DNA of 64,000 nucleotides from Pigmentiphaga litoralis (GTDB lineage Bacteria; Pseudomonadota; Gammaproteobacteria; Burkholderiales; Burkholderiaceae_B): positions 1,798,001 to 1,862,000 of the forward strand of contig NZ_JACCBP010000001.1 of assembly GCF_013408655.1 (NCBI RefSeq), given 5' to 3'. Below the pieces are notes generated by a model, which worked only from the letters and a program-made list of their open reading frames with translations, was not told the DNA's origin and did not search any database. This document shows positions 34,634 to 43,684 of this stretch, piece by piece (within the stretch, counting starts at the first letter, position 1; the number at the start of each line of letters is the position of its first letter). The position numbers and the translations under genes are program-made.

Positions 34634-36021
34634 CGATGTCCGCACTTGCCATCGCCGCCCAGGTCCGTGACGGATCCCGCACGGCCGCTTCCTTTCTTGA
34701 AGAAACCATTGCCCGCATCGAAGCGCGCGATGGCGACTTCAACGCCTTTACCGAACTGACCTTGGCCCGCGCCCGGCGCGACGCTGCCGACATTGACGCC
34801 CGGCGTGCGCGGGGCGAGACCTTGCCGCCGCTGGCCGGCGTACCGTTTGCCGTCAAGAATCTGTTCGACATCGACCAGGTCGTGACCACGGCGGGCGCCA
34901 AGGTCAACCAGGGCAACCCGCCTGCCGACGCCGACGCCGTGCTGGTGGCGCGCCTGAAAGACGCCGGCGCCGTGCTGCTGGGCGCCCTGAACATGGACGA
35001 ACACGCCTACGGCTTTACTACCGAAAACACGCATTACGGCGCGGCGCATAACCCGCACGACCTGACCCGGATCGCCGGCGGATCGTCGGGTGGCAGCGGC
35101 GCGGCGGTGGCGGGCGGCCTGGTGCCGATCACGCTGGGGTCCGACACCAACGGGTCGATCCGGGTGCCGGCATCCTTGTGCGGCGTGTTCGGTCTCAAGC
35201 CGACCTTTGGCCGCCTGTCGCGCCGGGGCAGCTTCCCCTTCGTGGGCAGCCTGGATCACCTGGGCTGCTTTGCCGGCAACGTGGCCGACCTGGCCGCTGC
35301 CTACGACGCCATGCAGGGTCCCGATCCTGCCGATCACGCCTGCGCGCAGCGCCCGGCTGAAGCCGTGTCCGCCACAGTGGCGAATGGACTGAAGGCCGGC
35401 GCCCGGGTGGCGGTGCTGGGCGGCTACTTCCATGACTGGGCCAACGCGCCCGCACGCGAAGCCGTCCGACTGGCCGCCGAAGCCTTGGGCGCCACCACCG
35501 TGGTGGAACTGCCCGGCGCCGAACAGGCCCGCGCCGCGGCCTTCATCATTACCGGGGCCGAAGGCGGCGCGCTGCATCGCCAGCGCCTGCTGACCCATTA
35601 CGCCGACTACGAACCCGCGTCGCGCGACCGCCTGGTCGCCGGCACGCTGATCCCGGCCAACTGGGTGGTCCAGGCCCAGCGCATCCGCCAGAAGTTCTAT
35701 GAAGAAGCCAGCCGCCTGCTGCAGGACTACGACGTCCTGATCGCCCCCGCAACGCCCGTGGCCGCCACCACCATCGGCGCCGAATGGGTGACGATCAATG
35801 GCCAGAAGCTGCCGTGCCGCGCCAGCATGGGCCTGCTGACGCAGCCGATTTCGTGCATCGGCCTGCCCGTCTGCACCGCGCCGCTGTGGCCCGGCATCGG
35901 CGAGGACCCGCACCTGCCGCTGGGCGTGCAGCTGATCTCGGGCGCCTGGCGTGAAGCGGATGCCCTGGCGGCGGCGCGGACCCTGGAACTCGCGGGTATT
36001 TCTGCCGTGCGGGACGTGTGA
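34630..36021 (+). CDS. AtzE-family amidohydrolase (amidase signature)
   Basis: This 463-residue enzyme belongs to the amidase-signature family. The catalytic triad is visible: Lys in PFAVKNLFDI, the cis-Ser in GGSSGGSGAAVA, and the nucleophile Ser in LGSDTNGSIRVPAS. The GSLDHLG motif and the preceding DUF4089 gene place it with AtzE, 1-carboxybiuret hydrolase, or with related oxalurate/ureido-acid amidases, rather than GatA. The substrate cannot be fixed because no other cyanurate or allantoin genes are in view. It overlaps atzG by four bases and the GntR gene by four bases (GTGA), so the three form one transcription unit. Confidence 0.85.
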   Translation: MTMSALAIAAQVRDGSRTAASFLEETIARIEARDGDFNAFTELTLARARRDAADIDARRARGETLPPLAGVPFAVKNLFDIDQVVTTAGAKVNQGNPPADADAVLVARLKDAGAVLLGALNMDEHAYGFTTENTHYGAAHNPHDLTRIAGGSSGGSGAAVAGGLVPITLGSDTNGSIRVPASLCGVFGLKPTFGRLSRRGSFPFVGSLDHLGCFAGNVADLAAAYDAMQGPDPADHACAQRPAEAVSATVANGLKAGARVAVLGGYFHDWANAPAREAVRLAAEALGATTVVELPGAEQARAAAFIITGAEGGALHRQRLLTHYADYEPASRDRLVAGTLIPANWVVQAQRIRQKFYEEASRLLQDYDVLIAPATPVAATTIGAEWVTINGQKLPCRASMGLLTQPISCIGLPVCTAPLWPGIGEDPHLPLGVQLISGAWREADALAAARTLELAGISAVRDV

Positions 36022-36746
36022 TCCCGGTGCGCGCAGTCGCCGCCGGCCGCCGCAAGGCGTCGCCCGCCACGCTGGCGGACGGCGTCTACGCCCGCCTGAA
36101 AGAAGAGCTGTTCGACTTCCGGCTGATCCCGGGCGACCGGTTTTCGGAAACCGAAGTGGCCGAGCGCCTGGGGGTCAGCCGCACTCCGGTGCGCGAAGCG
36201 CTGTTCCGGCTTCAGCACGAAGGCTATCTGGACGTGCACTTTCGCAGCGGGTGGTCGGTCCGGCCGTTCGACTTCGAACTGTTCGACTACCTGTATGACC
36301 TGCGGACCGTGCTGGAAGGCGCGGCCATCGACCGGCTATGCAACAAGGATTTGCCGCAAGGCCGGTTGGACAGCCCTGCCCTGCTCGCGCTCAAGGATAT
36401 CTGGCTGGTGAACAAATCCGCCAGGCTGAGCGATGGCAAGCGGCTGGCCGAACTGGACGAAGCGTTTCATCGTGAGCTTGTGCTGGCCGCTGGCAATCCG
36501 GAAATGGCGCGGGTGCATCTGGAAGTGACCGAGCGCATCCGGATCGTGCGGCAACTGGATTTCACGCAGCCCTTGCGAGTCGAGAAGACCTACGACGAAC
36601 ATGCCCAGGTGCTGCGGGCGATCCTGAAACGCAAGCCGGAAGAAGCCCGGGCATTGATGGGGACCCACATTGCCGCCAGCGCGGCCGAAGTGCGCAAGAT
36701 CACCCTGCACCGCCTGTACGCGGCGCGGCGGGAACACCCGGCCTGA
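36018..36746 (+). CDS. GntR family transcriptional regulator (FCD type)
   Basis: This protein of 242 residues has an N-terminal winged helix (LADGVYARLKEELFDF..., with SETEVAERLGVSRTPVREALFRLQ as the helix-turn-helix) and a C-terminal all-helical FCD domain (LYDLRTVLEGAAIDRLC, LDEAFHRELVLAAGNPEM, HAQVLRAILKRKPEEARALMGTHI), which carries the metal/ligand-binding Asp and His. It starts with GTG at 36018, overlapping the amidase stop, and probably controls the amidase operon in response to its substrate or product. Confidence 0.9.
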   Translation: MIPVRAVAAGRRKASPATLADGVYARLKEELFDFRLIPGDRFSETEVAERLGVSRTPVREALFRLQHEGYLDVHFRSGWSVRPFDFELFDYLYDLRTVLEGAAIDRLCNKDLPQGRLDSPALLALKDIWLVNKSARLSDGKRLAELDEAFHRELVLAAGNPEMARVHLEVTERIRIVRQLDFTQPLRVEKTYDEHAQVLRAILKRKPEEARALMGTHIAASAAEVRKITLHRLYAARREHPA

Positions 36747-37298: not shown

Positions 37299-39401
37299 TC
37301 AATACACGTCGCGCCGGTAGCGGCCCGCTTCGGTCAGCGTGTCGAGCCGATCTTCTCCCAGTGTGCGAGTGAGGACCTCGGCAACGCCGCTTGCCATGCC
37401 CTGCAGACTGCCGCACACATAGATTGCAGCACCGTCGTCGACCCACTGGCGGATGTCGTCCGCGACTTCGGCCAGGCGGTCCTGAACATACCGTGCGCGG
37501 GCATTGCTGCCGCCGTCTCTGGAGAACACGAGGTCCAGGCGCGTCAGCACCCCTGCCTGTTGCCACGCGGCGATTTCCTCGGCAAAGAACTGGTCGTGGG
37601 CAGCGGTGCGTTCGCCGAACAGCAGCCAGTTGCGATGCTGCCCGGCGCGCGCGCGGGCCTTCAGGTGGGCGCGCAGGCCGGCCAGCCCCGTGCCGTTGCC
37701 GATCAGGATCATCGGGCCGTCGTCGGCGGGCGGATGGAAGCCGCGATTCTCTCGGATGCGCAGTGCGACCGTGGCGCCGACGGGGGCGTGTTGGGTCAAC
37801 CAGCCGGATCCCAGGCCCAGGCGGCCGTCGGGATATCGCGTCTGGCGCACCAGCAATTGCAGCACGCCGTCGTCAGGCAACGAGGCGATGGAATATTCGC
37901 GATGCGGCAGCGGGGGCAAGTGGTCGAGCAGGGTTTGCAGGGTTTGCAGGGTGATGGGGGTGATGGGGGTGATGGGGGTGATGGGGGCGTGGGCGTGGGC
38001 GTGGGCGGCTGCGGCTGCGGCGGCGGCGTTTGGGGCACGGGCGGCGCTGGCGTCGCTACGCAGTCTTAGGGCCAGCGCGGCCACGGCCTCGTCGTCGTGA
38101 GGCAGCAGGCGCCCAGCCAGGATGTCGGCGATTCGCTCGCCAGAGGGAGTGGACACGGGCAAGGCGGTGGCCGTCGGCAAGGACGGGACTGGCGCCGTCG
38201 GCAGGGACGCGACTGGCGCCGTCGGCAAGGGCGTGGCCGGCGCCTTCGGCACGGGCGTGGCCGCGTCCATCTGCAAGGAAGCTTCGGGCGCCGAAGGCAT
38301 GGCAAAGGTGATCGCTCCGCCCTTGTCCGAGCCCGCGCGCGCTTCCGGAGCCCACCCCAGCGCCGCCATCACCCGCTGCACTTCCGCGTCGGACTGCCGC
38401 GGACCGATTTCGGCAATGTCCCCGGCCTGCCAGGACGGCATGCCTTCAGTCGCCACCAGGCTGACCAGGAACGCCGGGCCGCCCGGACTGCCCGGGTTCA
38501 GATGTTCGCGCGCCAACAGCCGCCAGGGCGCGTAGACAGGCGTCGTCCAGTCGGCCATCTCGGCATTGCCGCTCAACACGCCCAGGTACTGCTGCCAATG
38601 GCGCAAGTCGTCTGCGCTACCGTTGTCCACCTGGACGGTGTCGAACAGCGGCTGCGCGCCGTGCCGATGCAGCCACCCATCCAGCGCGCTGCCAAAGGCG
38701 CAGTAATGCGCATAGCTGCGATCGCCCAACGACAGCACGCCATACGACAAGCCGTGCAGGTCCACGGCGCCCCGCATCACGCGGCGAGCAAAGCCCACGG
38801 CGGTGTCCGGGGCATCGCCCTCGCCCGTCGTGCTGACGACGAACAAGGCCCGCTTCGTGGCCGACAGCTGCGCCGCATCCAGCGCAGACAGGGGCAGCAC
38901 CGTCACCGCCATACCGGCGGAGTGCAGCGTGTCGGCGGTCTGCCAGGCAAGCTGTTCCGCAAAGCCGGTCTGGCTGGCGTACGCGATCAGCAAGGGCGAA
39001 CCGGCGATTTGGTCCCGTGAATCCGCTGGATGCTGTGAATCCGCGGGGTCCTGTAAATCCGCGGGGCCCTGTGCGTCCTGTGAATCTGCTGGGTTCTGAA
39101 AATTCTGCGGGCCTTGCATCCGGCCGCCCGAGGCAGCGGGCGACCGACGCCGCCCATCCTGTCCCTTGCCAGGCAAAGCCTGCCCGGCCCGCCCTTGCCT
39201 CGCGATTCCCACCCGCCCATGCGCCTGCGCGGCCGCGCGGCGGCGCAGCGCCACCACGCCGCAAAAGGCCACGTAGGCCAGCACGACCAGAACCGCCGCC
39301 ACCCAACGCCGCGCCGGGTCGGCCAGCGGCGCCATCCCCGCCGCCACGCCCCACGCCCCCGCGATCAATACCGCAAGCACTCCATAAGCAAGGCGCGTCA
39401 T
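37299..39401 (-). CDS. Membrane-anchored flavodoxin/FAD reductase (CysJ-like)
   Basis: This protein of 700 residues starts with two membrane helices (about 5-25 and 33-50) and a linker with repeats. A flavodoxin domain follows (137-275, LLIAYASQTGFAEQLAWQTA and VSTTGEGDAPDTA), then an FAD/NADPH reductase module with REYSIAS (501-507), GNGTGLAGLRAHL (568-580) and YVCGSLQGM (661-669). The order equals sulfite-reductase flavoprotein or cytochrome P450 reductase, but anchored in the membrane. It should pass electrons from NADPH via FAD and FMN to the PepSY/DUF2271 proteins of the same operon. Three in-frame minisatellites lengthen its linkers. The ATG at 39401 overlaps the apbE stop (ATGA). Confidence 0.88.
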   Translation of the reverse strand: MTRLAYGVLAVLIAGAWGVAAGMAPLADPARRWVAAVLVVLAYVAFCGVVALRRRAAAQAHGRVGIARQGRAGQALPGKGQDGRRRSPAASGGRMQGPQNFQNPADSQDAQGPADLQDPADSQHPADSRDQIAGSPLLIAYASQTGFAEQLAWQTADTLHSAGMAVTVLPLSALDAAQLSATKRALFVVSTTGEGDAPDTAVGFARRVMRGAVDLHGLSYGVLSLGDRSYAHYCAFGSALDGWLHRHGAQPLFDTVQVDNGSADDLRHWQQYLGVLSGNAEMADWTTPVYAPWRLLAREHLNPGSPGGPAFLVSLVATEGMPSWQAGDIAEIGPRQSDAEVQRVMAALGWAPEARAGSDKGGAITFAMPSAPEASLQMDAATPVPKAPATPLPTAPVASLPTAPVPSLPTATALPVSTPSGERIADILAGRLLPHDDEAVAALALRLRSDASAARAPNAAAAAAAAHAHAHAPITPITPITPITLQTLQTLLDHLPPLPHREYSIASLPDDGVLQLLVRQTRYPDGRLGLGSGWLTQHAPVGATVALRIRENRGFHPPADDGPMILIGNGTGLAGLRAHLKARARAGQHRNWLLFGERTAAHDQFFAEEIAAWQQAGVLTRLDLVFSRDGGSNARARYVQDRLAEVADDIRQWVDDGAAIYVCGSLQGMASGVAEVLTRTLGEDRLDTLTEAGRYRRDVY
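37950..37987. repeat. 9-bp coding minisatellite (ITP repeat) in the flavoprotein gene
   Basis: Four tandem copies of a 9-base unit (GTGATGGGG on the plus strand) encode Pro-Ile-Thr repeats at residues 473-484, next to an Ala/His-rich run. The copy number is likely to vary between strains without changing the frame. Confidence 0.85.
38157..38261. repeat. 18-bp coding repeat (PTAPVxSL) in the flavoprotein gene
   Basis: Imperfect tandem units built on CGTCGGCAAGGACGGGAC-like words encode PLPTAPVASLPTAPVPSLPT at residues about 381-415. The segment is a proline-rich linker between an FAD-domain insertion and the rest of the reductase. Confidence 0.75.
39009..39113. repeat. Coding repeat (NPADSQD) in the flavoprotein gene
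   Basis: Imperfect 12- to 21-base units encode FQNPADSQDA, LQDPADSQHPADSRD and similar words at residues 97-131, in the linker between the membrane anchor and the flavodoxin domain. Confidence 0.75.
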
Positions 39402-40612
39402 GACGCCATCGCCAGGAACGCCGGCGTCAGCACTTCGCGCCATCCCTTGCCCTCGCGCACCACGAACCGCGCGGCCAGTCCGTTGCGTCCGGCCCAGGCA
39501 GGGCCATCCTGCTCGCCCAGCACAGTCAGCGCCGTGGCCAGCGCGTCGGCCACCATACATTCCGGGTGCAGGACAGTGACCGATGCCACGCGCGACGCCA
39601 CGGGGTAGCCAGTGCGCGGGTCAATGGTGTGGCTGAAGCGTTCGCCGTTCACTTCGAAGTAGCGCCGATAGTCGCCGGACGTGGCCACGGCCAGGCCGTG
39701 CAGCGCCACCAGTGTCCGGGGCAGATGAGCCGATACGCCGCCACGGGCATCGAGCACCAGGCCGCTGTCATCCTCGGGATCCACTCTCTGCTCCAAGGAA
39801 TCCGCTGCGCCAGCAGAGCCGTCCGCACCCACCCCGGCACCCACCCCGGCACCCGCCCCTGCATTCAGCGTCACCAAGCCCACCCCTGCATTCAGCATCC
39901 CCAAGCCCACCTCGGCACCTGAGCCTCCGTCGTCGGCGGGCGCTTCCAGTTCCACCCACCAGGGTTCGCCGCTGGGCTTGGCGCCCACGCCGCGCAGTTC
40001 GCCGCCGACTTCAACCAGCGCATGCGCATGTCCCAGCCGCCGCAGCAGCTTGACCAGATGGTCCACGCCATACCCTTTCGCCACGCCGGACAGGTCCACG
40101 CTTACCCCACCGGGCTGCCAGGCGCGCCGCGTGGCGGGGTCCAGCTTGATCGCGGCCCAGCCCTGCTGGCGCCGCGCCGCGTCGATCGCCACGTTGGCCG
40201 GCGGCGCCGACACGGCGCCCAGCGGGCCGAAGCCCCACAGGTCCACCAGCGGCCCCACGGTCGGGTCGAACGCGCCGCCACTGTTGCGCGCCACGGTCAG
40301 GGCGTAGTCCAGCACCGTATAGAACGGTTCGGGCAGGGTGTGCCAGGTGCCGGCCGGTGCCGCGTTGAAGCGGCTCAGGTCGGACTCCGGGTCCCAGGTG
40401 CTCATTTGCAGGACCACCTCGTCCAGGGCGGCCTGGATGGCTCCCCACAGAACGGCCCGGGCGCCGGGCAGCGCGTCAGCCAGCGGCAGCACGACGGTGA
40501 CCGACCAGGTGGTCCCCATGGTGTCGCCCGACAGCACCACCGGCGCGGCATCGGCCGCCGGCGGGGGCAGATCGGCGGGGGAAATGGCCAGGGGAATCAG
40601 AATTCGCGTCAT
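39398..40612 (-). CDS. apbE: FAD:protein FMN transferase ApbE
   Basis: This protein of 404 residues is an ApbE-type flavinyltransferase, which attaches FMN from FAD to a Thr/Ser in a target protein. Motifs: GDTMGTTWSV (29-38), VDLSGVAKGYGVD (172-184), ALVEVGGELRG, and the Mg2+-binding HTIDPRTGYP (328-337). The target is probably the DUF2271 protein of the same operon. Residues 229-288 are an inserted Gly/Ala/Val-rich repeat absent from ordinary ApbE. The chosen ATG has no Shine-Dalgarno and lies 8 bases after a strong hairpin; the N-terminus does not look like a signal peptide, which is odd for an enzyme with an exported substrate. Confidence 0.9.
   Translation of the reverse strand: MTRILIPLAISPADLPPPAADAAPVVLSGDTMGTTWSVTVVLPLADALPGARAVLWGAIQAALDEVVLQMSTWDPESDLSRFNAAPAGTWHTLPEPFYTVLDYALTVARNSGGAFDPTVGPLVDLWGFGPLGAVSAPPANVAIDAARRQQGWAAIKLDPATRRAWQPGGVSVDLSGVAKGYGVDHLVKLLRRLGHAHALVEVGGELRGVGAKPSGEPWWVELEAPADDGGSGAEVGLGMLNAGVGLVTLNAGAGAGVGAGVGADGSAGAADSLEQRVDPEDDSGLVLDARGGVSAHLPRTLVALHGLAVATSGDYRRYFEVNGERFSHTIDPRTGYPVASRVASVTVLHPECMVADALATALTVLGEQDGPAWAGRNGLAARFVVREGKGWREVLTPAFLAMAS
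39749..39928. repeat. Coding repeat insertion in apbE
   Basis: This segment encodes residues 229-288 of ApbE, with tandem 27-base units (LGMLNAGVG / LVTLNAGAG) and 12-base GAGVGAGVGADG units. It interrupts the protein between two conserved strands and is probably a surface loop. Confidence 0.75.
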
Positions 40613-40620
40613 TGATACGA

Positions 40621-40658
40621 CGACGCCCGCTGCCGCAGGAACGGGGCAGCGGGCGTCG
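40621..40658. promoter_or_regulatory. Strong hairpin directly before apbE
   Basis: A perfect 14-bp inverted repeat CGACGCCCGCTGCC / GGCAGCGGGCGTCG with a 10-base loop lies between the DUF4198 stop (40698) and the apbE ATG (40612), ending 8 bases before the latter on the minus strand. It lacks a following U run on that strand. It could act as an attenuator, an RNA-processing site or a block on ribosome entry that sets apbE below the upstream genes. Confidence 0.6.
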
Positions 40659-40697
40659 GTTTTCCTACCGGCAGATGAATCAGGATTTACAGGCCGA

Positions 40698-41522
40698 TCA
40701 CTCGGGCAGCACTTCGAACGTCGCGGCATAGGTCGCGCGGCGTTCCTTGGCCGGGGGGGCGGCCTTGTCATCCTTGACCGACGCTTCGATCCAGTACATG
40801 CCCGGGCCCGGCCACTTGATCGAGAACTTGCCTTCAGCATCCGTGGTCGTCTTGGTGTCCTTGAGCTGGTCGCGATAGCGCACGCCGCCCGGAACAATCT
40901 CGACTTCCAGATTGGACGCCGGCTTGCCATCCAGCATGAAGCGGAAGTTGGCGGTGTCGCCCGACACCAGGTCGTTCGGATGCGTGATCGGCGCCAGTTC
41001 CAGGCCCTTGCCCGTGATGGCAAGCGCCTTGTCGGACGGTTTGCCTGCCGTCACGAAGACTTCGGTGCGGCCCGACGTCTGCGTCACGACCAGGCCCTCG
41101 GCGTTGGCCGGCACTTCCTTGGCGAACGCTTCGGGCGTGCCGCGCCACCGCTTCTGCTTGCCGTCTTCCTTGTAGCTGGCGAACATGCCGTTGTTGGCCA
41201 CGGCCAGCTTGTAGGTGCCGGGCTGGGTCAGGTGCACGTCGAAGGTGCTGCGATAACGGCCGGTCGACGGGTTCTCGGCCTTGACGGGCGAGCCGTCCGG
41301 ACCGGTCACCGACAGATTCGTCAGCTGCATCGGAAAGTGTTCGAAGTAGAACAGGTCATTCGAGATGGCGGCGTCGACCGTCACCCACGGGTCCTGGCCC
41401 GACAGCACGGTGGCCGAGGGCAGCATCCACGCGCGGTGGGCCTGGGCGGCCGAGAACGGCAGGCAGACGGCAAGCGCAAGCGCGGCCCATGTCATCGAAG
41501 TCTTGGCGGAGTGTTTGATCAT
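40698..41522 (-). CDS. DUF4198 periplasmic protein
   Basis: This 274-residue exported protein has a signal peptide ending AQA (about residue 28) followed by AHRAWMLPSATVLSG, the standard start of mature DUF4198 proteins. DUF4198 members are beta-rich periplasmic proteins of the carboxypeptidase-regulatory/Ig-like fold, often found beside TonB receptors, nickel/cobalt or iron uptake genes; here the C-terminus ends in such a domain (DGKPASNLEVEIVPGGVRYRD, TDAEGKFSIKWPGPGMYWIEAS). AAAGGA lies before the ATG at 41522. It probably supports metal or electron handling with its operon partners; no enzyme activity is known. Confidence 0.85.
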   Translation of the reverse strand: MIKHSAKTSMTWAALALAVCLPFSAAQAHRAWMLPSATVLSGQDPWVTVDAAISNDLFYFEHFPMQLTNLSVTGPDGSPVKAENPSTGRYRSTFDVHLTQPGTYKLAVANNGMFASYKEDGKQKRWRGTPEAFAKEVPANAEGLVVTQTSGRTEVFVTAGKPSDKALAITGKGLELAPITHPNDLVSGDTANFRFMLDGKPASNLEVEIVPGGVRYRDQLKDTKTTTDAEGKFSIKWPGPGMYWIEASVKDDKAAPPAKERRATYAATFEVLPE

Positions 41523-41590
41523 CGTGAGTCCTTTAAGGAAAGACGCGGCAAAGGTGGTTACGGGGACGGGTCGTTGCAAGCGTGTCGAAA

Positions 41591-42103
41591 TCAGGGTTTG
41601 AGGTCGAGCGCGATCGCGCCCAGTTCATGCTCGCCCTTGACGGCAAGCGTCTCGGCCGACTTGGGCGGCCACTGGAAAGGCAGCCGCAGCAATTCACGCC
41701 CGCCGACTTCGCGCGCGGCTTCCACCACCAGCTGGTACTGCCCCGCCGGCAACCTGGCCATCGGCGCCTTGCCTTCCGTGAATGTCAGCCGATGTTCGCC
41801 AGCAGCCCGGGTAGCGCCACTGACGCCGTCGACCGGCATCGTCAGTTCCCGGCCGGTGCGGCGCCACCACTGGCGCATATCCTTGAGCCACTTGGTGCCT
41901 TCGTTCTCTTTCAACTTCATGTCGTACCAGACCGCCAGATTGCTTGCGACGGTCTGGTCCGGACCTTCGATCCACACGGCCACATAGGGGCGGTGGTATT
42001 CGGCCACATTCAGGCGAGGGATCTCGACCTTCACGGTCAGATCGGCCGCCTGCGCATGGCCAACAAGCAGTGTGGTCACGGCGGCGGGGATCAGAATACG
42101 CAT
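41591..42103 (-). CDS. DUF2271 periplasmic protein with flavinylation motif
   Basis: This 170-residue exported protein has a signal peptide cut after AQA (residue 19). The mature part is a DUF2271 domain (VEIPRLNVAEYHRPYVAVWIEGPDQ, AVWYDMKLKENEGTKWLKDMRQWWR). Residues 92-98, DGVSGAT, match the ApbE target pattern D-x-x-(S/T)-G-A-(T/S), so Thr98 is the expected site of covalent FMN attachment. With apbE two genes downstream this suggests a periplasmic flavin electron carrier. The ATG at 42103 has GAGG close upstream and sits 10 bases after the PepSY stop. Confidence 0.87.
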   Translation of the reverse strand: MRILIPAAVTTLLVGHAQAADLTVKVEIPRLNVAEYHRPYVAVWIEGPDQTVASNLAVWYDMKLKENEGTKWLKDMRQWWRRTGRELTMPVDGVSGATRAAGEHRLTFTEGKAPMARLPAGQYQLVVEAAREVGGRELLRLPFQWPPKSAETLAVKGEHELGAIALDLKP

Positions 42104-42113
42104 GCAAACCTCG

Positions 42114-42752
42114 TCAATGGATGAAAACGATCGCCAGCACCACCGGTATCGCCACACCCAGCGCCACCATGGGCCAGGTGACGGGGCGATTGCGCGCGTG
42201 GAGCTGAAGCAGGAAGAGTCCGGTCACGCAAAAGACCAGACAGGCGACCGCGAAAATGTCGATGAACCATTTCCAGGCTTCGCCCGTACTGCGTCCCTTG
42301 TGCAGGTCATTGAAATACGAGACCCACCCGCGGTCGGTCTTTTCGAAGCTGTAGGCACCGTCGGTTCGATCGATGCTGACCCAGGCGTCGCCCCCCGGCC
42401 GCGGCAGCGCGACATACACCTCGTCATCGGTCCACTCGCCCACCTGGACATCGACGGATGCCGGCAACTGCCCGCTGAGCCACTGGGCCACGGCGTCGGG
42501 CAACGGCGCCTTGGCGGGCGACGGCGCAGTCGGCAACAAGGCCAGCAAGGGACCGGGCAGCTGCCCTTCTTTGGTCGTGACCTTGGGACGGGCTTCGATC
42601 TGCGCGGCATGATTCAGCGTGATGCCCGTGACCGAAAACGCGATCATGGCGACCAGGCAGATGGCCGAACTGATCCAGTGCCATTGATGCAGATGCTTGA
42701 GCCAGAACGACCGGCGTTGTTGTCCGGCAAATCGGTCAGACGGTGTGTCCAT
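42114..42752 (-). CDS. PepSY-associated transmembrane protein
   Basis: This 212-residue inner-membrane protein starts with the PepSY-TM motif WLKHLHQWHWISSAICLVAMIAFSVTGITLNH. A periplasmic PepSY domain follows (about residues 85-150, with EVYVALPRPGGDAWVSIDRTDGAYSFEKTDRGW), then a second helix with DLHKGRSTGEAWKWFIDIFAVACLVFCVTGL and a third near the C-terminus. The paired His residues in the helices could bind heme, as in PepSY-TM ferric reductases. It is the first gene of the five-gene operon and lies 37 bases behind a Fur-box-like site. A role in moving electrons across the membrane is inferred. Confidence 0.86.
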   Translation of the reverse strand: MDTPSDRFAGQQRRSFWLKHLHQWHWISSAICLVAMIAFSVTGITLNHAAQIEARPKVTTKEGQLPGPLLALLPTAPSPAKAPLPDAVAQWLSGQLPASVDVQVGEWTDDEVYVALPRPGGDAWVSIDRTDGAYSFEKTDRGWVSYFNDLHKGRSTGEAWKWFIDIFAVACLVFCVTGLFLLQLHARNRPVTWPMVALGVAIPVVLAIVFIH

Positions 42753-42788
42753 GAACGCCGGAAAGCACGTAAGAGTCAGAAGGCCGTC

Positions 42789-42807
42789 ATGATAACAATT
42801 CTCAATC
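42789..42807. promoter_or_regulatory. Fur-box-like site before the PepSY operon
   Basis: The 19-base sequence ATGATAACAATTCTCAATC (reverse GATTGAGAATTGTTATCAT) resembles the Fur box core GATAATGATAATCATTATC and the GAGAATNNTTATC words seen in related bacteria. It lies 37-55 bases before the PepSY start codon in an otherwise GC-rich gap, where a promoter is expected. It suggests iron repression of the operon. Confidence 0.55.
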
Positions 42808-42915
42808 ACCTTTGCCATGTTTGCCTGGAGCGAGCGCCCACAAACAAAAGCGCCCGTTGCGTGGATCCATACAGGACGCGGCGGGCGCAATCAGTACTTG
42901 CAGTTCAGGGGGCTG

Positions 42916-43335
42916 TCAGCCTGCGGGAAGAAGCTTCCCGATGACATCCAGCAGGTGATCGAACAACACCGGCTTGGCCAGATGGGCGTCGAAACCTTTG
43001 GCGCCGGCGCGCAGGTTCTCTTCCTTGCCCCAGCCGTAGCCCGACAACGCGATCGCCGGAATATCGGCGGTGCGCGGATCATCGCGCAAATGGGTCAGCA
43101 ACTCATAGCCGTCCATGCCCGGCATGGCGATGTCTGAAATCAGCAGGTCGAAGTGTTGGCGCTCGACCTGTGCCAATGCCTGGTCGCCGCTGGAAGCGGT
43201 GACGACATCAGCGCCTTCGAGTTCGAGGAGTTCCGAAAAAGCGTCGAGTGCATCGACGGAATCATCCACGAGCAGGACACGCAGGCCGGACAGCGCCTCT
43301 GGCGTGCCAACGCCGGGGCCCGAGCTTGTTGTCAT
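42916..43335 (-). CDS. Single-domain response regulator (CheY-like)
   Basis: This 139-residue protein is a lone receiver domain. Phosphoacceptor Asp68 (LLISDIAMPGMDG), the acidic pair Asp24-Asp25 (LLVDDSVDAL), Ser98 (ALSGYG) and Lys121 (LAKPV) are all in place. There is no DNA-binding or enzyme output domain, and no histidine kinase gene lies in the window, so it may act in a phosphorelay or by protein contact; hybrid-kinase receiver domains have this same sequence style. AGGA lies before the ATG at 43335. The longer frame upstream looks non-coding. Confidence 0.85.
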   Translation of the reverse strand: MTTSSGPGVGTPEALSGLRVLLVDDSVDALDAFSELLELEGADVVTASSGDQALAQVERQHFDLLISDIAMPGMDGYELLTHLRDDPRTADIPAIALSGYGWGKEENLRAGAKGFDAHLAKPVLFDHLLDVIGKLLPAG

Positions 43336-43468
43336 GGCAAATCCTGGAAAATCGTGCCGTGCGTAAGCACGGGGTGCGTCTCGGGGCCAGTTCATCGGAC
43401 TCGCGGCGCGTGCTGCAAAGTCCGACGCCTTCCAAAGCGCCGTGCGGGCCGGCGCAGCGGAAGCAGGT

Positions 43469-43684
43469 TTATTCATCGCCTTCTAGACGAATACCTACCT
43501 TGAGACTCACCTGGTAGTGCGCGACTTTGCCGTCTTCGATGTGGCCACGCGTCTCCGTCACTTCGAACCAGGCCAGGTGGCGCAGTGTCTGCGAAGCGCG
43601 ATTGATGGCGTTCTTGATGGCGTCTTCGATGGATTCGGTGGACGACCCGACGAGTTCGATCTGCTTGTAGACGTGCTCTGACAT
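43469..43684 (-). CDS. Dodecin
   Basis: This 71-residue dodecin is a flavin-binding/storage protein that forms hollow dodecamers. The flavin-stacking Trp39 ([12 protein letters not shown]) and the ligand-contacting Gln58 ([13 protein letters not shown]) are conserved. GGAGGT directly precedes the ATG at 43684, one of the best ribosome sites in the window. Bacterial dodecins bind FMN or riboflavin derivatives and buffer free flavin. Its closeness to the FMN-transfer operon (about 700 bases away, same strand) is suggestive but may be chance. Confidence 0.93.

Follow-up and report, generated by a model that had tools for sequence, protein, structure and literature searches.

A probable five-gene flavinylation operon

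The stretch of DNA analysed here, referred to as the window, comprises 64,000 nucleotides of Pigmentiphaga litoralis (contig NZ_JACCBP010000001.1, positions 1,798,001 to 1,862,000 of the forward strand). On its minus strand, at 37299-42752, it carries five genes of a flavinylation system whose flavin transferase, ApbE, lacks a recognisable export signal. The first gene (42114-42752; PF16357, E 3.4e-87 in Pfam) codes for a PepSY_TM_like_2 membrane protein of 212 residues with three hydrophobic helices, and the second (41591-42103; PF10029, E 2.8e-53) for a DUF2271 precursor of 170 residues with a Sec-type signal peptide, the proposed carrier of flavin mononucleotide (FMN). They are followed by genes for a DUF4198 protein with a signal peptide, possibly a metal-binding or metal-carrying partner (40698-41522; PF10670, E 1.4e-59), for ApbE, of 404 residues (39398-40612; PF02424, E 1.6e-80), and for a membrane-anchored diflavin reductase of 700 residues (37299-39401; Flavodoxin_1, E 6.7e-27; NAD_binding_1, E 1.4e-9). 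The genes lie where the original prediction, made from the sequence alone, had placed them and in the same order, and each is matched by Pfam. Their most likely starts are at 42752, 42103, 41522, 40612 and 39401, respectively; the frames in the list of open reading frames (ORFs) are open upstream of these positions, and the start of the reductase gene overlaps the end of apbE as ATGA.

The gene set is that of an already known system, of which the operon is one more example. Meheust et al. (2021, eLife) described a 'PepSY-like' flavinylation system of 3220 clusters, 2833 of them with DUF2271 and 1500 with DUF4198. It is defined by a PepSY protein (PF03929 or PF16357) clustered with ApbE, FMN_bind, DUF3570 or DUF2271, a signal peptide being required in one or more of these four. 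The operon falls within this definition, with PF16357, PF10029, PF02424 and a signal peptide on DUF2271. As in the published clusters, a PF16357 PepSY protein, DUF2271, DUF4198 and ApbE are encoded together, whereas here the set also includes a separate gene for a diflavin reductase, and the ApbE lacks a recognisable export signal. The same study reports ApbE-dependent flavinylation of the DUF2271 protein of one species, lost upon a Thr-to-Ala substitution, as well as links to iron. In Caulobacter crescentus, which belongs to another class of Pseudomonadota, the same five kinds of gene occur in the same order under Fur control (CC3059-3063, or CCNA_03155-03159). According to da Silva Neto et al. 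(2013), they are regulated by iron and Fur, and mutation of fur derepresses them; transposon insertions in them lower fitness in ethylenediaminetetraacetic acid (EDTA), according to a 2025 Caulobacter paper. Since DUF2271 flavinylation, the effect of the Thr-to-Ala change, Fur control and the EDTA phenotype are already published, the view that the function of such a chain is not established holds only in part.

To place the operon among its relatives, we fetched DUF2271 loci from three sets: 60 from the same family, 80 named (the best 80 of 510 matches) and 60 phylum-wide. Of 200 genomes from the same family, 78 have a PF10029 match, 76 of these above the cut-off; of 398 genomes sampled across the phylum, 70 have one, 65 of these above the cut-off. 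The order PepSY-DUF2271-DUF4198-ApbE-reductase occurs in 116 of the 200 relative loci, that is, in 37/60, 57/80 and 22/60 of the three sets, respectively. The nearest named relatives, among those best 80 matches, are from Pigmentiphaga, with 77% identity for DUF2271 in P. humi. A second architecture (loci L070, L090, L040 and L277, for example) has the order DUF2271, then a PepSY-flavodoxin-FAD-NAD protein, then ApbE, and all four fusions scanned carry these domains. It resembles the operon in domains, partners and a signal-less ApbE, but its conduit and reductase are fused, no DUF4198 was detected and the acceptor residue is Ser, whereas the operon has separate genes, a DUF4198 protein and Thr.

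The proposed acceptor lies in the motif DGVSGAT (41810-41830, minus strand) of DUF2271; its last residue is Thr98 of the precursor (codon at 41810-41812), as originally predicted. In 201 aligned DUF2271 domains, this position is occupied by Thr in 175 and by Ser in 26, and the full [ST]GA[ST] pattern is found in 157 of the 201 proteins. According to a 2025 review of ApbE, a seven-residue linear motif suffices for recognition by the enzyme, which works best at chain ends. Searched with the DUF2271 profile, the PDB sequences gave chance-like matches only. The genome of the window has a single DUF2271 gene, and we propose that its product carries covalent FMN at Thr98.

Predicted Fur control, the proposed electron path and its metal

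Upstream of the operon, a Fur-box-like site (42785-42809, no strand assigned, about 33-57 nucleotides before the PepSY start codon) consists of overlapping 19-mers, one at 42785 and one at 42791. Each matches 13 of the 19 positions of GATAATGATAATCATTATC, which we take to be the Fur-box consensus, and they are the top two matches in the 64 kilobases; a promoter-like match at 42818-42789 overlaps the site. We extended the search to 123 loci with a PepSY match, from which 7 identical duplicates and 1 further locus (lacking a start motif or sufficient DNA upstream) were dropped. Fur-like matches of at least 13/19 within 260 nucleotides upstream were found in 66 of the 115 relatives scored versus 27 of 1150 dinucleotide shuffles, and in 6 of 327 control stretches from inside the operons. 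The site predicted before the first gene thus survives comparison with the window, with shuffles and with intra-operon controls; the sequence evidence supports control of the operon by Fur.

The PepSY protein has four histidines kept in nearly all of 161 aligned stand-alone relatives: His25 in 161, His151 in 161, His185 in 151 and His212 in 160. His25 is part of the W[HQ]W motif used to select the aligned proteins, and a further 10 relatives lack this motif and were excluded. The topology that we infer puts His25 and His185 close to the cytosolic side of the membrane and His151 and His212 close to the periplasmic side. This is the arrangement that a conduit with two hemes needs, suggesting that PepSY is a heme-type electron conduit. 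FoxB, a siderophore reductase of Pseudomonas aeruginosa (PDB 7ABW), is likewise a PepSY-type membrane cytochrome with His-bound hemes; unlike the operon, it is not linked to flavinylation in the literature consulted, and the PepSY profile used here has no sequence match to solved structures. In all, the genome of the window has nine PepSY_TM matches, and the eight besides that of the operon lie in open frames of 432-676 residues.

The reductase has two N-terminal helices, a flavodoxin domain and an NADP-type domain. Pfam thereby bears out two parts of the NADPH/FAD/flavodoxin reductase that had been predicted (NADPH, reduced nicotinamide adenine dinucleotide phosphate; FAD, flavin adenine dinucleotide), but it finds no FAD-binding domain. 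The protein resembles the sulfite reductase flavoprotein 6efv (E 1.3e-42), in an alignment that covers residues 136-264 and 460-684 and passes through the FAD-domain part where Pfam finds none. It also contains low-complexity repeats of the QDPADS-, APxPSLPT-, AHAHAH- and PITPIT-types. In some relatives, PepSY and the diflavin reductase form one polypeptide beside DUF2271 and ApbE (the four fusions scanned), which supports a direct path of electrons from the reductase to PepSY.

Taken together, electrons from NADPH would enter the membrane-anchored reductase, pass through its FAD and then its flavodoxin FMN, and traverse the inner membrane through PepSY, probably via two b-type hemes held by the histidines on each side. 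They would arrive at FMN on Thr98 of periplasmic DUF2271, and the reduced carrier could then reduce ferric iron or a ferric chelate. Up to the reduction of a metal, such a chain had been part of the original prediction and agrees with the model of Meheust et al. (2021); that the metal is iron is suggested by the regulation and the gene context. Uptake of the ferrous product by FeoB is possible because the genome encodes FeoB (an FeoB_C match is present), while FTR1 is absent. Among eight proteins scanned around the operon there was neither an iron transporter nor a TonB receptor, and the literature consulted yielded no assay of ferric reduction by a DUF2271 system. Probably, the operon helps the cell to obtain iron.

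The DUF4198 protein bears on the nature of the metal. Of 124 loci, 123 have a His directly after the AxA-type cleavage site; in the window, the mature chain would start with a His at 41438. Two further histidines of the mature chain, His34 and His153, are each kept in 119/123. With its N-terminal His, DUF4198 resembles metal-binding exported proteins, and it may be a metal holder, keeping the metal or passing it on. The DUF4198 protein of Ideonella sakaiensis (PDB 9GCB; Nat Commun 2025) is also exported with an N-terminal His after cleavage and binds Ni2+ via this residue and His18. The metal reduced might then be other than iron, with nickel, cobalt or copper, for example, handled through DUF4198. 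We consider this improbable: Fur-like sites precede the operon, and the Caulobacter operon is regulated by Fur and iron. Neither the DUF4198 protein of the window nor its profile gave a convincing match to solved structures at E 1 or better and, as no match to 9GCB was recovered, the protein appears remote from the nickel-binding one.

The operon ApbE and the search for an export signal

Against PF02424, the ApbE of the window scores 270.9 bits (cut-off 25.6), and its closest solved relative is 5MGY (E 7.4e-65). Its Ser, His and Asp are spaced by 16 and 28 residues, as in the ApbE of Vibrio cholerae, whose catalytic residues are Ser241, His257 and Asp285 (2025 ApbE review); the strict Ser-His-Asp pattern matched 129 of 172 operon ApbEs. 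A Gly/Ala-rich insert at about residues 229-297 splits the Pfam match in two, and these two stretches of one ORF represent the only ApbE gene of the genome.

Signal peptides were scored with two home-made scorers rather than with a trained predictor. The first was positive for 105/127 DUF2271 and 106/124 DUF4198 proteins, for 10/131 operon ApbEs, including that of the window, and for none of 14 negative controls. The second was applied at thresholds of 1.2, 1.65 and 2.0, at which 198, 186 and 112 of 201 DUF2271 proteins and 168, 168 and 149 of 173 DUF4198 proteins passed, versus 36, 13 and 7 of the 172 operon ApbEs (165 distinct ORFs). By the score of 2.0 and by eye, we accepted a signal in the stand-alone ApbEs of loci L044, L062, L156 and L239 and in the ApbE-DUF2271 fusions of L271, L272 and L274. 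The other 29 of the 36 passing at 1.2 were judged false, most having GTG or TTG starts or short Pro-rich stretches. For the ApbE of the window, none of the starts accepted within 70 codons yields a charge-free hydrophobic stretch of 12 residues in the second scorer. Also, the ApbEs of eight Caulobacteraceae loci that were inspected (L139 and L152, for example) show no signal by eye, L135 passing at the lenient threshold via a TTG start. As a control, we scored 20 non-operon ApbE paralogues, lower-scoring matches from the same family genomes; 20, 20 and 12 of these passed at the three thresholds, and all 20 show a signal with a twin-arginine-like pattern. The paralogue group L203-L220 has an N-terminus of the form RRRF[LI]GI, a signal resembling those for twin-arginine translocation (Tat; scored from a later start in L215), and no TMGTxW motif.

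Thus, the operon ApbE has no recognisable export signal, though its DUF2271 partner is predicted to be exported in nearly all loci. This pairing, which the original prediction had missed, is the one feature without a published account among the papers searched: no discussion of a missing ApbE signal was found in the available parts of Meheust et al. (2021), nor of the pairing in the open-licence PubMed Central literature, as far as accessible and with subscription journals not covered. Exactly one ApbE match is present in 36 of 57 family genomes. Two of these, G013 and G080, carry the signal-bearing operon ApbEs of L044 and L062; in most of the 36, the signal-less ApbE is therefore the sole known candidate for flavinylating the exported DUF2271.

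In a quick tree of 195 ApbEs, 144 operon ApbEs fall on one side of a branch with a Shimodaira-Hasegawa-like approximate likelihood ratio test (SH-aLRT) value of 87, below the 95 mark. That side adjoins 18 lipoprotein ApbEs whose genomes have no operon ApbE, some long branches being flagged, and the signal state requires at least four changes. The tree fits an early loss of the signal in the operon ApbEs with few regains, the key branch not being strongly supported.

A signal-less ApbE could also mean that the enzyme modifies a cytosolic protein and that DUF2271 is not its substrate here. The 2025 review describes most ApbEs as exported and one of Klebsiella as signal-less and cytosolic, serving a cytosolic fumarate reductase. 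For the operon ApbE, we regard a cytosolic target as highly improbable. FMN_bind has no match in the genome of the window, and the strict motif D..[ST]GA[ST] is nearly absent from the other operon families scanned (0/158 reductases, 2/187 PepSY proteins and 0/173 DUF4198 proteins), whereas all 201 DUF2271 domains have Thr or Ser at the acceptor position. Moreover, a DUF2271 protein is a proven ApbE substrate (Meheust et al., 2021).

The site of flavin attachment

With DUF2271 as the substrate, the question becomes where FMN is attached. We infer that the operon ApbE most likely acts in the cytosol, on the DUF2271 precursor, which would then be exported by Sec, because the enzyme lacks a recognisable export signal and the genome encodes no other ApbE. 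Attachment in the cytosol is feasible, since the pair tested by Meheust et al. (2021) was made in E. coli without signals and DUF2271 was flavinylated by ApbE. We considered export of the flavinylated protein by Tat and set it aside, as a Tat-like pattern is present in just 4 of 201 DUF2271 proteins.

Several observations weigh against flavinylation before export, or against other parts of the scheme. For this operon itself, the evidence is drawn from sequence. The first, laxer scorer rated the ApbE of the window, with the N-terminus MTRILIPLAISPADLPPPAADA, weakly Sec-like; the second did not. In all 19 genomes that have no ApbE at the DUF2271 locus, the best match elsewhere carries a signal or lipobox (25 of all 30 loci fetched), so that a periplasmic ApbE can presumably serve DUF2271. 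Meheust et al. (2021) call the ApbE of Amantichitinum ursilacus that they tested signal-peptide-truncated, like the DUF2271 protein of the pair. They thus took this ApbE to have a signal, which implies that exported ApbEs do occur as partners of DUF2271, and the ApbE of Salmonella is functional only when exported (2025 ApbE review). With no Tat motif, the modified DUF2271 would have to leave via Sec. Lastly, the PepSY profile gave only chance-like matches to PDB sequences, none of them a solved relative, so the heme part depends on the positions of the histidines and on the family literature.

The same electron chain could operate with flavinylation in the periplasm if ApbE were exported non-classically, or if its short hydrophobic N-terminus, of the RVLIP type, acted as a weak signal. 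The weak rating by the first scorer and the Salmonella enzyme speak for this possibility, as does an RVLIP-like pentapeptide in 77 of 146 type A ApbEs; the four stand-alone ApbEs and three fusions with an accepted signal indicate that an exported arrangement works. However, charged residues break the hydrophobic stretch after 6-8 residues in many relatives, the N-termini of Achromobacter-type ApbEs are not hydrophobic, and in most ApbEs of the second architecture no more than a short leader precedes the conserved TMGTxW motif. The ApbE of the window, too, lacks the charge-free stretch sought by the second scorer. Periplasmic attachment here seems to us unlikely.

We consider it rather probable, then, that the locus is a Fur-controlled flavinylation operon of the PepSY type, coding for a metal reductase that runs from NADPH to the periplasm and whose DUF2271 carrier is flavinylated before export. 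A broader proposition, which we hold to be evenly balanced, is that an old, separate clade of ApbEs has lost the signal for export and acts on a single exported protein. In that clade, the DUF2271 precursor would receive FMN in the FAD-rich cytosol and then travel through Sec, as the normal route for the PepSY-DUF2271 iron systems of alpha- and betaproteobacteria, contrary to the current view of attachment in the periplasm. If so, Sec would carry an unfolded chain bearing a bulky cofactor ester, this pathway would not depend on cells supplying FAD to the periplasm, and surveys keyed on signal-bearing ApbEs would miss such systems. The potential importance of the locus lies in this site of attachment; by itself, the operon adds another example of a published system.

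Two further features of the DNA complete the description. A GC-rich perfect hairpin of about 14 pairs (z -3.3) lies in the gap between the DUF4198 gene and apbE (40613-40697) and ends just before the apbE start. We rejected it as a control element: stems of at least 10 pairs occur at this position in 59 of 141 relatives and in 505 of 1410 shuffles (mean z of the relatives -0.73; 29/141 below -2), and since long stems are also common in shuffles, the hairpin is not evidence of a conserved element. The operon is flanked by a GntR/FCD regulator gene on the plus strand (36018-36746) and by a gene for a lone response-regulator receiver protein on the minus strand (42916-43476).

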